DNA of 11,136 nt, taken from positions 1-11,136 of the forward strand of contig PWOI01000072.1 in NCBI GenBank assembly GCA_003557485.1, in the 5' to 3' direction. This DNA comes from Elusimicrobiota bacterium. GTDB taxonomy: Bacteria > CG03 > SLGR01 > PWQF01. Both the position numbers and the translations under genes were made by a program. Each line of letters opens with the position of its first letter. The stretch's first letter is position 1. Positions 1 to 11,136 of this stretch are shown here, one piece after another. The notes beneath the pieces were generated by a model. That model was not told the DNA's origin. It searched no databases and worked only from the letters and a program-made list of their open reading frames with translations.

Positions 1-228
1 GATATAACTAATGAGACAAACCAGGATGTTACCAGAGGGGGAGTTGGCTTTGAATATATAAACCGGGATATGTTTTTTCTCAGGGCAGGTTACCGGCTTA
101 ATTATGAAATAAAGCATTTTACATGGGGGCTTGGCGTAATCTACGGCAGGTTCAGTTTTGATTACGGCATGGGGCTGACGTCTGCTATAAATACAGAACA
201 TATGGTTATTTTTTCTGTGAGGATTTGA
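1..228 (+). CDS. C-terminal end of a PorV/PorQ-like outer-membrane beta-barrel protein (5' truncated)
   Basis: The window opens inside this gene. Frame 1 is open from base 1 to a TGA at 226-228 and gives 75 residues. The visible part alternates polar and hydrophobic residues in short strands separated by Gly/Asn/Asp turns. These include a segment around residues 13-20 (GGVGFEYI), an LRAGYRL-type strand around 27-33, and paired strands running to a final HMVIFSVRI strand that ends directly at the stop. A strand ending at the extreme C-terminus is usual for outer-membrane barrels. The 'LRAGYR ... GLG ... Y' pattern resembles the PorV/PorQ (UPF0164-type) barrels found beside surface-secreted proteins. 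The next gene starts 2 nt downstream and encodes a secreted propeller, which fits an export or attachment partnership. The family call rests on a short fragment; another barrel family is possible. Confidence 0.5.
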   Translation, partial: DITNETNQDVTRGGVGFEYINRDMFFLRAGYRLNYEIKHFTWGLGVIYGRFSFDYGMGLTSAINTEHMVIFSVRI

Positions 229-230
229 AA

Positions 231-2654
231 ATGAAAGCAGCAAAAATATTATTAAATATTACTTTTATTTTATGCTTTTTTGTTTTACTTGCTGAAGCTG
301 ATATATCAACTGTTTTTAAAGAAAACACACCGGGCATATTCAAGCCAATGAGGTTTGGAGATGCAGCATGGGCCGATTTCCGGGGAAACGGCCTCTGGGA
401 CCTGGCTGTTTCCGGAATAGATGGTTCTGGTCAAAACAAGGTGTATTTATATAGAAACCACGGAAAGTTAATTTTTTCAGTTGAGAAGGATATTACAGTG
501 GCCGGAGACGAACCTGCCGGCATTGCCTGGGGAGATTACAATAACAGCGGGCGTATTGATCTGCTTGTTGCAGGGTGGGAAACGACAGACCTTTACGAGA
601 ATAGAGGTGGAGGAGCTTTTGTAAAGGTTCCTGTCAGCGGACTTGATGTGACAAGAGAAGCAAAGGTAGCGTGGGCTGATTTCAATAATGACGGGCTTAT
701 GGATCTGGCGATAATAGGGTACAACAGCAGCAGGCTCTATGTTAATAACGGGAACGGTTCGTTTTCTACTCGTGATATTTTTTCCACCGATGTTACTATG
801 GCCCTGCATGCAATTGCATGGGGCGATTATAACAACAGCGGCTACCCGGACCTTCTTATAACCGGGTCTCCGACCGGGATTGCCGGTCAAGCTGAGATAT
901 ATCTTTTTGAAAACAATGGGGACGGAACTTTTTCCAGCGAAGCCGAGGCAATGGTCAGAGCCAGTACATTTACTGCAGTAGAATTTGGAGATGTTGCCTG
1001 GGGTGATTTAAACAATAACGGGTTCCTGGATCTGGTTATCGCTGGCAGGACCGAATCGGGGAATAAACTTATTGTTTATGAAAACCAGGGAACAGACGGA
1101 AATTACAATTTCGAGAAAAGCGCCTCTCTTACAGGAATCAGGGACGCGTCACTGGCGTTTGCAGATGTAAATAATAATGGACGGCTTGATATAATAGCGA
1201 TGGGTGCAGTAAGCGAACTGAATTATAAAACATTTGTCTATATAAATGAAGGGAATTTTAATTTTGCCGAAAACGAACTTGATACAGGCATGAGAGACGG
1301 TGCCCTGGTTCTTGCGGATTGTACGGGAAGCCGCATGCCGGATTTATATCTGCATGGAAGTGAACAGGTTAAATTATATAGAAATAAAGTTGAGGGCAAA
1401 GAGGCTCCGAAAGCTGTAGCGGCTGACGATATGCACTCCGTATATTATCTTGACACACTTTATATTATGTGGAACCCTCCTGACGGGATTACAGATGAAT
1501 ATTACTATAATTTCCGTATAGGTGAAGAAGAGGGTCTGGATAATCTTGCTCCCGCAAGGTACGGTTCTCCGCTTTTTGGAAGCTACTTAAGTAAGGCTAC
1601 TACAAATACTCATCAGAACAGCAGAATAAAAAATGGTCAGGTTCCAGACATGGATAATTTCAAGTATATAAGAGCGGTTGAAGTTTCCGGCAGCAACTAC
1701 CATTGGGCGGTCCAGTCCATTGATGCGTCACTGGGTTTTACATGGACCGATGCCGACCTGGCAAGCGGCTGGAGTGAAAACAAAGTTTTCATCGATACCA
1801 CTCCGCCTGTGGGATATCCGTCAAAACCGTCAATTGAGGGTAAATATACCTACGACAGAGACCTGACTTTCACATTAGACAAAGGTTCTTCCGAAGATAT
1901 TGAGACGAGGATTTTCGGGGCTTATGTACAGCTTCAGGAAATTGAATACGGAGGAATTTTTAACGATAAGGATAACATTATAGTTGAAAAGGAAATCTGG
2001 CCCGGGAGAGGGTCCTCCGTATGGGGAGAGAACGGCACTTTTGAGTACGAGCATAAGGGAAGTTACGACAGAAGTTACCGCATAAGGGTTAAGGCCCGCC
2101 ACGGATATTCTATGCATCTTCCTTTTTCTGTTTATTTGACTACCGCTCCGGGGGGATTTTTTGATTATTACGGCGGTTACAGCAATTACGATACGGTAGA
2201 TCTTGAAAACATACACTCTATATCTGTTCTTGCCAGTTCAACAAGTGTTTCGGAGAGCAAAATAGAAAACGATTTTGCCAGCTGGCATTTCAATACCGTA
2301 TCGCCTCACTATACTTCAGCCGGGCCTAATGGCGGATGGTCAGAGTGGAGCGATCCCATTACGCCCGTCCGGCTTCTTACAGTTGAAAACAATCTTATAA
2401 CCCAGCCCGGAGTCCATACAGTTGATATAGGATATTTTGCTCTAGAGGACGGGAGAGCCACAATAAGAGTCTTTGATATAATGGGAAACCATGTTGTAAC
2501 CCTCCTGGACGAAAGTGTTGACAGCGGGGTGAGAAAATTTATACAGTGGGACGGGCTTAACAGGAGTGGGAAACCGGTGGCAAGCGGTATTTACTATATA
2601 AATATCCAGGTGCCGGATGGAGAGGATACTTCAAAAGTGGCGGTTATTAAATAA
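231..2654 (+). CDS. Secreted FG-GAP/VCBS seven-repeat propeller protein with C-terminal FlgD/T9SS-like sorting domain
   Basis: The product is a secreted, probably surface-exposed protein of 807 residues with no recognisable catalytic domain. ATG 231 is chosen over in-frame TTG 225 because GAGG at 219-222 lies 8 nt before the ATG but only 2 nt before the TTG. Residues 1-24 are a signal peptide: basic start, hydrophobic core, then Ala-Glu-Ala. Seven FG-GAP repeats follow at about 50-residue spacing. Their calcium-type loops (D-x-[ND]-x-x-G-x-x-D) start at residues 49, 102, 150, 199, 259, 312 and 363; the last is degenerate. Seven repeats fit one closed integrin-like beta-propeller. Residues 390-720 are less clear, with fibronectin-III-like stretches rich in Tyr, Gly and Asp. 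Residues 728-807 form an Ig-like domain with V-F-D-I-M-G-N, W-D-G-L-N and S-G-I-Y-Y motifs, ending in Lys, as in FlgD-like and type IX sorting domains. The ligand is unknown. Confidence 0.85.
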   Translation: MKAAKILLNITFILCFFVLLAEADISTVFKENTPGIFKPMRFGDAAWADFRGNGLWDLAVSGIDGSGQNKVYLYRNHGKLIFSVEKDITVAGDEPAGIAWGDYNNSGRIDLLVAGWETTDLYENRGGGAFVKVPVSGLDVTREAKVAWADFNNDGLMDLAIIGYNSSRLYVNNGNGSFSTRDIFSTDVTMALHAIAWGDYNNSGYPDLLITGSPTGIAGQAEIYLFENNGDGTFSSEAEAMVRASTFTAVEFGDVAWGDLNNNGFLDLVIAGRTESGNKLIVYENQGTDGNYNFEKSASLTGIRDASLAFADVNNNGRLDIIAMGAVSELNYKTFVYINEGNFNFAENELDTGMRDGALVLADCTGSRMPDLYLHGSEQVKLYRNKVEGKEAPKAVAADDMHSVYYLDTLYIMWNPPDGITDEYYYNFRIGEEEGLDNLAPARYGSPLFGSYLSKATTNTHQNSRIKNGQVPDMDNFKYIRAVEVSGSNYHWAVQSIDASLGFTWTDADLASGWSENKVFIDTTPPVGYPSKPSIEGKYTYDRDLTFTLDKGSSEDIETRIFGAYVQLQEIEYGGIFNDKDNIIVEKEIWPGRGSSVWGENGTFEYEHKGSYDRSYRIRVKARHGYSMHLPFSVYLTTAPGGFFDYYGGYSNYDTVDLENIHSISVLASSTSVSESKIENDFASWHFNTVSPHYTSAGPNGGWSEWSDPITPVRLLTVENNLITQPGVHTVDIGYFALEDGRATIRVFDIMGNHVVTLLDESVDSGVRKFIQWDGLNRSGKPVASGIYYINIQVPDGEDTSKVAVIK

Positions 2655-8962: not shown

Positions 8963-9409
8963 ATGGATCCCGTAGTGATTTTTGCAATGCTGGCAATACT
9001 CTTTGCGCTGCTCAACCTGATTTTATGGGTTTTTGCGTGGAAAGGCCTGTCCGGAGATACAGGAAAATCGGGTAAGTATATTAGAGATTTGAATGAAAAA
9101 AATTCCAGGATAGAAGATCAGCTCTGGGGGGTTATAGACAGGATAAAAGAACTTGAGAAAAAAATAGCGAGTCCGGGTTCCAATGGTTCAGAGTACATTA
9201 AGAAAGAAATAGAAAAACTTGGCCTTCTAAACAAAAAAGTAGGGTTTTTATCTCAGAAAAATTCACAGCAGCTGGATGTTATAAGCGAAAACTTAGACAA
9301 CCTTAAAACTGCATTTGAAAAATTTGATAAGCTTTCAGATACAATGGGAACAATCAGCGAAAAAATAACCCGGCTTAGCAAAAAAACAAAAAACGAAGAA
9401 GACGAGTGA
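8963..9409 (+). CDS. Membrane-anchored coiled-coil protein, unknown function
   Basis: I do not recognise a family. The 148-residue product has one N-terminal membrane helix (about residues 4-27, very hydrophobic, with no positive charges before it). A Gly/Ser/Lys linker follows, then two charged helical stretches at about 38-69 and 77-139, rich in Lys, Glu, Asp, Ile and Leu in heptad-like spacing and split by a Pro-Gly-Ser-Asn-Gly turn near 71-75. The C-terminus is a Lys-rich then Glu/Asp tail. It has no cysteines and no catalytic motif. It probably forms a coiled-coil oligomer tethered to the inner membrane; the side is uncertain. ATG 8963 has an excellent AAGGAG at 8950-8955. It is the first gene of the third group and is followed after 13 nt by the PEGA protein. 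Confidence 0.75.
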   Translation: MDPVVIFAMLAILFALLNLILWVFAWKGLSGDTGKSGKYIRDLNEKNSRIEDQLWGVIDRIKELEKKIASPGSNGSEYIKKEIEKLGLLNKKVGFLSQKNSQQLDVISENLDNLKTAFEKFDKLSDTMGTISEKITRLSKKTKNEEDE

Positions 9410-9422
9410 GGAAGATTCCGTT

Positions 9423-9854
9423 ATGGCCTCCTGGGAAAAAAATAGTATTAAAAAAATTATCCTGATACTCCTTTTGGTTCTCAATACAACTGCACTTACT
9501 GTTTCGCTTTTTGTGCTTTACAGGTTTTTCTCAGAGACCCGGCCGGATTTTGATTCGGAGCCTATACTTTCTCAGCCTTTAGGTTACGATGTGTCAGTGC
9601 GAAACTCTTTGGAAGAAATAAGTCAGGATAATCCGGCAAGAGTAAAAGTGCAGTCTGAGCCGGGAGGGGCAAAAATATATATTCAAGGTCATCTGAAAGG
9701 ATTGACGCCGGCGGAAGTGCTGGTAGTAGGTTCTGTTGAAAGCGGATTGTACGTTATTACCCTCAAAAAAGAAGGGTTCAGAGAGTGGGAAAGGACAATC
9801 CATCTTACAGGAGGAGAATTCAGAGAAATTAAATCTGTTCTTGAGAAAAAATAA
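9423..9854 (+). CDS. Membrane-anchored PEGA domain protein
   Basis: The product has 143 residues. A short basic N-terminus precedes one membrane helix (about residues 11-34), so the rest probably faces the periplasm. Residues 40-72 are a low-complexity linker rich in Asp, Ser and Pro. A single PEGA domain occupies about 74-140: V-K-V-Q-S-E-P-G-G-A-K-I-Y-I-Q-G, then L-T-P-A-E, a central G-L-Y-V-I-T-L strand, and G-F-R-E-W near the end. PEGA domains are small beta-sandwiches in surface and periplasmic proteins, thought to bind partners or cell-wall polymers; no enzyme activity is expected. GAGGAAG at 9408-9414 precedes ATG 9423. The stop overlaps the next ATG by 1 nt (TAATG), so it is likely coupled to the lipoprotein gene. 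Confidence 0.85.
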   Translation: MASWEKNSIKKIILILLLVLNTTALTVSLFVLYRFFSETRPDFDSEPILSQPLGYDVSVRNSLEEISQDNPARVKVQSEPGGAKIYIQGHLKGLTPAEVLVVGSVESGLYVITLKKEGFREWERTIHLTGGEFREIKSVLEKK

Positions 9855-11136
9855 TGGTTTTTAAAAGGAAAATTTATATTTTAATTTATGTTGCCGCTTT
9901 TGGGTTATCAGCCTGTGCCCGCCGGCCTGCGCCTCTTATTGTTGATTATCCTGAGGATATAGAAAAACCGCCTGAAATAACAGAGGTGGTTTTGATTGCC
10001 CGTCTGGATTTTGCTCCGCCTTCCGGCCCCCTTGATTACACAAGAAAAGTTCTTGGCGAATTTAGGGACGGTATTGAAAAGTTAATAGAATTTCGCGATC
10101 CTTTTGTAATTGCTGTATCACCTCATATGATACGCAGTTTACCGGGTCAGCAGAATATCAAAGACTATATTGAAAACAGAATTCTTAAGGATCCGAATTC
10201 ACTGACAGAGGAAGATATTAAATATTTTTCATCCAAGTACGAAACCGACAGAAGTACAGGTTCTCTTTTGAATGCCCAGGTACAGGAAATTCTGTCTATG
10301 TTAGGAAACAGCCTTAAAAAATATGAAACGGCGCGTTACATTATAAGTAAGTCTTCTTATTCCGCGGCAGATAAAAATATGATGATAGATTTTATAAAAT
10401 CAGAAATTCTTGTTTTTGAAGAGATTCTGATTAAAGCTCTTGATAGAAATAACATAAAGGAAGCAGTGACCTCACTAAGTGATTCTTATCTCGGACTTCT
10501 TGATGATGACAGAATAAGGACACAGATTATGGAAGGGATAGTAGCCTATAAAAGATGGCGGGGTGAATTCCCGGAAGGTTTTATTCCCAGAAGCGGTTTT
10601 ATTAATCTTCAGGCTGCCGACAATATACAGAGAACAGGTATTGATTGGGTTCTTATGGATATTCCGGACGGCATAGATATGACCTATAATACGAAACCTC
10701 GTGTGGTTGAAACCGCCCTGATAGCAGGAGTGCTTAGAGCCGCCTACCTGCTTGAAAGTAAAGATTTCAAATCTGTAGATGTTAACCGCTATCTTGCGTC
10801 TAAATATGTTGCCGGTGAGGATACCGTAGAACTTAGCGGCACAGATCTTGTCAGTCAGTCCTGGCATATGCTTGAAAAAGAAAAATACTATGCGATGTTC
10901 CTTATGCTTGAGGAAGCAAGGGACGCCATAGCAATGTACAGGGACAGCGGGCGGGCAAGAATAGATGTTCTTTCTTCAATAAGAAGTAATCTGCTTATAG
11001 CAGAATCAGGAGTAATTACCGATAATATAGATTATCCCTTTTACGACAGAGTTTTCAGAAAAGCCCTTATAGACATATACCGTGCTATGGGAGCAGGGGC
11101 CCCTGCCGGGCTTTTTCTGCCCGTTACCGGGTTTAC
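9854..11136 (+). CDS. Lipoprotein with a degenerate GH57-like domain (3' truncated by the window edge)
   Basis: The frame is open from ATG 9854 to the last base, giving 427 codons without a stop. Residues 1-20 are a lipoprotein signal with lipobox L18-S-A-C21; Cys21 would be lipidated. The body resembles glycoside hydrolase family 57 (amylopullulanase-like) at several points. A V-V-L-I-A strand is at 45-49. F-V-I-A-V-S-P-H then L-T-E-E-D at 117-121 matches the family's 'N-L-V-P-S ... L-T-E-E-E' stretch. P240-E-G-F-I-P-R-S ... G262-I-D-W-V ... D matches the motif-3 region. L381-I-A-E ... F-Y-D-R-V-F-R ... I-Y-R-A-M-G matches the C-terminal helical region. Key residues look changed: HxHQP reads R-L-D-F-A-P, the nucleophile Glu of W-P-S-E reads Ser247, and D-W-F-W-W is gone. 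It is thus probably non-catalytic. The comparison is from memory of family motifs; a different helical lipoprotein is possible. Confidence 0.6.
   Translation, partial: MVFKRKIYILIYVAAFGLSACARRPAPLIVDYPEDIEKPPEITEVVLIARLDFAPPSGPLDYTRKVLGEFRDGIEKLIEFRDPFVIAVSPHMIRSLPGQQNIKDYIENRILKDPNSLTEEDIKYFSSKYETDRSTGSLLNAQVQEILSMLGNSLKKYETARYIISKSSYSAADKNMMIDFIKSEILVFEEILIKALDRNNIKEAVTSLSDSYLGLLDDDRIRTQIMEGIVAYKRWRGEFPEGFIPRSGFINLQAADNIQRTGIDWVLMDIPDGIDMTYNTKPRVVETALIAGVLRAAYLLESKDFKSVDVNRYLASKYVAGEDTVELSGTDLVSQSWHMLEKEKYYAMFLMLEEARDAIAMYRDSGRARIDVLSSIRSNLLIAESGVITDNIDYPFYDRVFRKALIDIYRAMGAGAPAGLFLPVTGF

Follow-up and report, generated by a model that had tools for sequence, protein, structure and literature searches.

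A GH57-derived, probably non-catalytic lipoprotein at a conserved locus of an Elusimicrobiota bacterium

Introduction

GH57 "-like" groups in which one or both catalytic residues are missing, and which are probably inactive, have been described in a survey of the family (PMC6037648). In other families, certain pseudoglycosidases are known to bind glycans that they do not cut (PMC7828330). Here, we describe the gene at the 3' end of an 11,136-nucleotide stretch of an Elusimicrobiota genome (assembly GCA_003557485.1, contig PWOI01000072.1), which is referred to as the window. Its product descends from GH57, a conclusion firmly supported by sequence comparison, and is very probably a pseudoenzyme. 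Its best solved structural relative is the GH57 amylopullulanase of Aquifex aeolicus (PDB 9jlq, 9jlr, 8zyi), which has the same fold and motif order and whose catalytic residues, E256 and D352, were taken as implied by the deposited mutants. The features of the gene, all on the forward strand, are as follows.

9854 to 11136, +: N-terminal 427 residues of an 831-residue, GH57-derived lipoprotein and probable pseudoenzyme, 3'-open at the window end
9905 to 9916, +: lipobox LSAC, residues 18-21; lipidation of Cys21 predicted, Ala at +2
9983 to 10009, +: place of conserved sequence region (CSR) 1, EVVLIARLD, residues 44-52; histidines of LWHxHQP lost
10448 to 10507, +: CSR-2 equivalent, NNIKEAVTSLSDSYLGLLDD versus GQIEITTTPFYHPILPLL; His replaced and about 21 following residues missing
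10571 to 10603, +: CSR-3 equivalent, PEGFIPRSGFI, residues 240-250; nucleophile column at Ser247, ungapped
10715 to 10750, +: CSR-4 region, compressed (residues 288-299, ALIAGVLRAAYL); lacks both an Asp proton donor and DGEN
10913 to 10972, +: conserved segment of the GH57 helical bundle, EARDAIAMYRDSGRARIDVL
10988 to 11026, +: CSR-5 equivalent, NLLIAES-GVITDN, with a deletion of the seven residues that correspond to DWFWWYG
11042 to 11092, +: final GH57 helix, YDRVFRKALIDIYRAMG

GH57 ancestry

The Pfam GH57 profile scores the window protein at 14.6 bits, below the cut-off of 21.2, and its relative in genome G004 at 23.1 bits, above it. In profile comparisons with hhalign, nine family sequences matched five ordinary GH57 proteins with an E value of 7.4e-12 over 367 columns, and the family profile matched the syntenic homologs of two other phyla with an E value of 1.1e-14. 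A local rerun scored 92.3; 60 column-shuffled profiles averaged 2.2 and did not exceed 8.5, and the reversed profile scored 3.5. The hhalign, Foldseek, and VIA-align matches all point to the GH57 fold, a (beta/alpha)7 barrel with a helical bundle. A GH57 scaffold had been proposed by a sequence-only reading of the window, and the landmarks on which that proposal was built are in place, namely LTEED (residues 117-121), PEGFIP (240-245), GIDWV (262-266), LIAE (381-384), FYDRVFR (396-402), and IYRAMG (408-413). Retained parts of the GH57 scaffold include the PEG..P stretch, GIDWV, and the last helices.

Loss of the catalytic motifs

Motifs were compared in a multiple alignment of the eight members of the order. 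At CSR-1, LWHxHQP is replaced by VLIARLD, and none of the members has the histidines. At CSR-2, TTPFYHPILPLL corresponds to TSLSDSYLGLL in the window protein. At CSR-3, GMWPAEG has become GFIPRSG; the nucleophile column holds Ser247, which is also Ser in the congeneric genome G001 and Gly or Gln in the remaining members, so that the nucleophile Glu is found in 0 of 8. A one-residue shift of this alignment would place R246 (Arg or Lys across the members) in the nucleophile column. A description of the change as Glu to Arg was dropped; the ungapped alignments put the Glu column at Ser247. The Asp proton donor of CSR-4 is absent from the window protein, which reads ALIAGVLRAA there. At CSR-5, a seven-residue deletion shared by every member that covers the region leaves only AES-G of AEGSDWFWWYG. 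The absence of HxHQP, the motif-3 Glu, DGEN, and DWFWW, as well as the compressed region that links motif 3 to the C-terminal helices, had all been noted in the sequence-only reading; the multiple alignment and hhalign bear out the former, and alignment the latter. The two findings that would have spoken against that reading, namely a lack of GH57 matches or an intact catalytic Glu and Asp at shifted positions, were not encountered: profile and structure comparisons gave GH57 matches, and none of the eight members has a Glu at the nucleophile. G003, G005, and G007 do have an Asp close to the proton-donor position, which the window protein lacks.

The complete protein and its domains

The open reading frame is genuine and, as first described, open at its 3' end: it starts with the ATG at 9854 and runs for 427 codons (9854-11134) with no stop before the window end. 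The window is the entire contig C57 of a 2.07 Mb genome in 212 contigs. Extension of the contig, which had been suggested as a check, showed that the gene continues on contig C137 (4651-5863, minus strand). The last 121 bases of the window are the end of C137, with an exact overlap, and reading through it yields a single protein of 831 residues. This join is well supported, since the protein is continuous and the gene order the same in relatives whose contigs are unbroken; intact open reading frames of 834-854 codons are found in G002, G005, and G007.

The protein consists of the lipobox, a GH57-like part (approximately residues 45-430), a CBM9/DOMON-like domain (approximately 440-620), and a C-terminal Glucodextran_C domain, and its full-length relatives share this layout. 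Glucodextran_C (PF09985) is recognized in the 831-residue protein with an E value of 9e-22 and 78.1 bits (cut-off 22). The scores of the relatives are 100-117 bits, and this domain is the best-conserved part of the protein.

AlphaFold models were built from 9-10 sequences and reached a mean predicted local distance difference test (pLDDT) score of 51 and 53, the latter for the G002 protein. Since the models are weak, structure matches were used only to name domains. In VIA-align, the G002 model matched glucodextranase 1ug9 (Z 19.0, C-terminal domain), the CBM74 of the starch-binding protein Sas6 (Z 10.8, 172 residues), the Aquifex GH57 amylopullulanase (Z 9.7), and the CBM9/DOMON-like chains 4jpq and 2ivf (Z 8.5-8.6). 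Foldseek ranked 1ug9 first (2.6e-10) and the Aquifex enzyme second (1.6e-5) for the same model. The top match of the window protein's own model was a GH57 amylopullulanase with an E value of only 9e-3, and GH57 ancestry was therefore rested on the profile comparison.

The window protein has the N-terminal signal and lipobox Cys of a bacterial lipoprotein, and the lipobox reported earlier at residues 18-21 (L18-S-A-C21) is present. The Cys is found in 7 of the 7 members of the order with an available N-terminus; in relatives of the window protein, the lipobox reads ISGC, ASAC, MAGC, FYGC, IYGC, or LAAC. Export, lipidation of Cys21, and, given the Ala at +2, sorting to the outer membrane are predicted.

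Conservation and selection

The gene occurs in all eight genomes of its order, and the window query found no match in the eight other genomes of the phylum. Among named genomes, six of the relatives are labelled Elusimicrobia bacterium and one is labelled Candidatus Sumerlaeota. Between the window gene and its congener, the ratio of nonsynonymous to synonymous substitution rates (dN/dS) is 0.14 over the first 262 codons, compared to 0.095 for metG and 0.18 for the nearby aldolase gene. This value indicates that the gene is maintained by selection. Two members of one genus have broken frames: an in-frame TAA follows residue 296 in G004 (L023 4102-6765), and a frameshift lies near residue 400 in G006 (L024 4749-7329). 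These reflect either sequencing error or a real loss in that genus.

Locus and neighbouring genes

The gene order is pilin-like, tmk, holB, PSP1, metG, DUF1537-like, class II aldolase, coiled coil, PEGA, the GH57-derived gene, DegQ, RlmD, and UvrD. The neighbours were named by recognition of their sequences, except for PEGA, which was assigned by Pfam. On C137, a DegQ/HtrA-like gene, an RlmD-like gene, and a UvrD-like gene follow downstream in this order. Two membrane proteins are encoded directly upstream:

8963 to 9409, +: coiled-coil protein, membrane segment at its N-terminus; syntenic in both orders of the phylum
9423 to 9854, +: PEGA-domain protein (PF08308, E 1.9e-14) with an N-terminal membrane segment

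The stop codon of the PEGA gene overlaps the ATG of the GH57-derived gene by one base (TAATG), and the PEGA gene has the same place in all checked relatives except G007. Synteny from tmk, holB, PSP1, and metG to the gene, DegQ, and UvrD extends across the order, is partial in the other order of the phylum, and is also found in two other phyla. Upstream of the same operon, the window (225-2654) and its relatives encode an exported protein, of 809 residues in the window, with repeated FG-GAP-like segments and a C-terminal resemblance to FlgD or a sorting domain.

Three ordinary GH57 genes above the cut-off are present elsewhere in the same genome, on contig C146. They form a cluster (G000:C146, L026 3816-10937) whose neighbours resemble genes for glycogen or starch synthesis and breakdown. 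As ordinary GH57 enzymes persist, the enzymatic job is covered, and glucan chemistry need not depend on the window protein.

Homologs in other lineages

In the other order of the phylum (L047-L052), the same locus encodes a protein of 650-672 residues with Glucodextran_C and without a lipobox. Its single GH57-type helical segment and its C-terminus match the window family with an E value of 1.4e-25. A GH57 origin of its residues 1-210 is not demonstrable, as hhalign scores of 16-20 are inside the shuffled range. An O-antigen-ligase-like tetratricopeptide repeat protein is often encoded next.

A protein combining GH57 and Glucodextran_C is also found in phylum X (G223, G387, G388, G353) and phylum Y (G130, G267, G389); the locus was checked, and found to be the same, in G223, G130, and G267. 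Like the window protein, the phylum X protein has a predicted lipobox, a GH57 part, a CBM9-like domain, Glucodextran_C, and the same gene neighbourhood, and its profile match to the window family spans CSR-3 through the C-terminus (E 2e-101). Unlike the window protein, it keeps the Glu of WLPE, the Asp, and KWFWW; E256 and D352 of the Aquifex enzyme correspond to its Glu180 and Asp294 in the alignment. It has, however, also lost the histidines of HxHQP. In phylum Y, WLPEG is kept, Glu stands in place of the Asp, CSR-5 is of the KWFFC type, and there is no CBM9-like domain.

In a tree of the C-terminal domain, the window order, the other order, phyla X and Y, and G157 fall together (support 93/89), apart from the sampled ordinary GH57 proteins, and each group forms one clade in a tree of the GH57 part. 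The G157 protein (L088 945-3512; 855 residues), whose gene is adjacent to an RlmD-like gene, shares the C-terminal domain and belongs with the family in the tree. Its N-terminal 630 residues gave no clear match, and hhalign does not firmly demonstrate a GH57 part.

The simplest account would be a loss of catalysis in place at a fixed locus; we infer the direction and order of the losses, and horizontal exchange is possible. A stepwise, in-place change of a surface GH57 glucanase into a non-catalytic lipoprotein with a role in the envelope rather than in sugar digestion, all stages of which are extant, is plausible and is put forward tentatively. Phylum X would then represent the stage with both catalytic residues, phylum Y that with Glu only, the window order that with neither, and the sister order one in which most of the enzyme domain has been dropped; this assignment is equally tentative. 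Transitions from enzyme to binder are usually reconstructed from scattered paralogs. Here, lineages that differ in how much of the active site is lost can be compared directly at a locus anchored by shared neighbours.

Possible functions

For the function of the protein, we lean towards that of a glycan tether, a non-catalytic binder or organizer of envelope glycans. An amylopullulanase-type GH57 alpha-glucanase would have lost catalysis at an unchanged locus and become a secreted lipoprotein, lipidated at Cys21 and directed to the outer membrane by the Ala at +2. The dead GH57 fold may serve as a scaffold, and the CBM9/DOMON-like and Glucodextran_C (CBM74-like) domains may hold a polysaccharide, which could be an alpha-glucan or a glycan of the cell's own envelope. 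The protein would act as a tether or organizer, not as an enzyme, in concert with the DegQ/HtrA-like protease and the two adjoining membrane proteins (PEGA and coiled coil). Several points weigh against this role. The AlphaFold models are of low quality, and matches to them speak for domain identity only. The locus is not a polysaccharide-utilisation cluster. A lipobox is lacking in phylum Y, as in the other order of the phylum, and lipidation is therefore not essential to the family. In addition, G003, G005, and G007 have Ser-Asp near the position of the proton donor, an assignment that is uncertain.

An envelope or secretion-assembly factor, in which all domains have lost glycan binding and the protein is a structural partner of the PEGA protein, the coiled-coil protein, and the HtrA protease, is a less likely explanation. 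The constant housekeeping neighbourhood with these three genes, the lack of polysaccharide-utilisation genes nearby, and the further reduction of the other order's protein at a retained locus are in its favour, but two domains of carbohydrate-binding type are kept, and the better conserved of them is the best-conserved part of the protein. A still-active enzyme, with an active site remodelled around other acidic residues or acting on a different glycan, is very unlikely. The syntenic phylum X homologs keep both catalytic residues, and Asp occurs near CSR-4 in three members of the order (L020, L021, and L025, from G007, G005, and G003, respectively), though these lack the nucleophile Glu; in the order as a whole, the CSR-3 Glu and the CSR-1 histidines are gone, CSR-5 is deleted, and the barrel segment is compressed. 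A decaying pseudogene or an assembly artefact, as the broken frames in the two congeneric genomes might suggest, was rejected as highly improbable on the basis of the dN/dS of 0.14, the presence in all genomes of the order, and the intact frames in G002, G005, and G007.

With this protein, a little-studied bacterial phylum gains a conserved envelope lipoprotein that is so far uncharacterised. GH57 or Glucodextran_C matches in such genomes need not imply glucan digestion.

Comparison with known systems

Compared to the Aquifex amylopullulanase, the window protein lacks equivalents of E256 and D352, the HxHQP histidines, and DWFWW, and it is a predicted lipoprotein with two additional domains. 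The glucodextranase of Arthrobacter globiformis (1ug9) has a C-terminal domain of the same family, PF09985, attached to an active, unrelated glycosidase instead of a dead GH57 part. Sas6 of Ruminococcus bromii (CBM74) may be an analogue as a non-catalytic starch binder, judging from the modelled likeness to the C-terminal domain of the window family; this likeness is one of fold only, and Sas6 has no GH57 part.

The sequence-only reading knew of no described family of this kind. This holds for the multidomain lipoprotein form, as neither a GH57-derived lipoprotein of this layout nor a GH57 pseudoenzyme family was found in the open-access literature, but not for GH57 proteins with altered active sites, since the "-like" groups had already been described. 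Substituted catalytic residues are common to these groups and the window protein. The "-like" groups are defined by five identifiable CSRs and by grouping with one of the named specificities, whereas in the window protein CSR-1 and CSR-5 are gone beyond recognition, CSR-4 is compressed, and the architecture is different. Having lost most of its GH57 signature, this multidomain protein, a predicted lipoprotein of the envelope, is a variant of the already described GH57 "-like" proteins.
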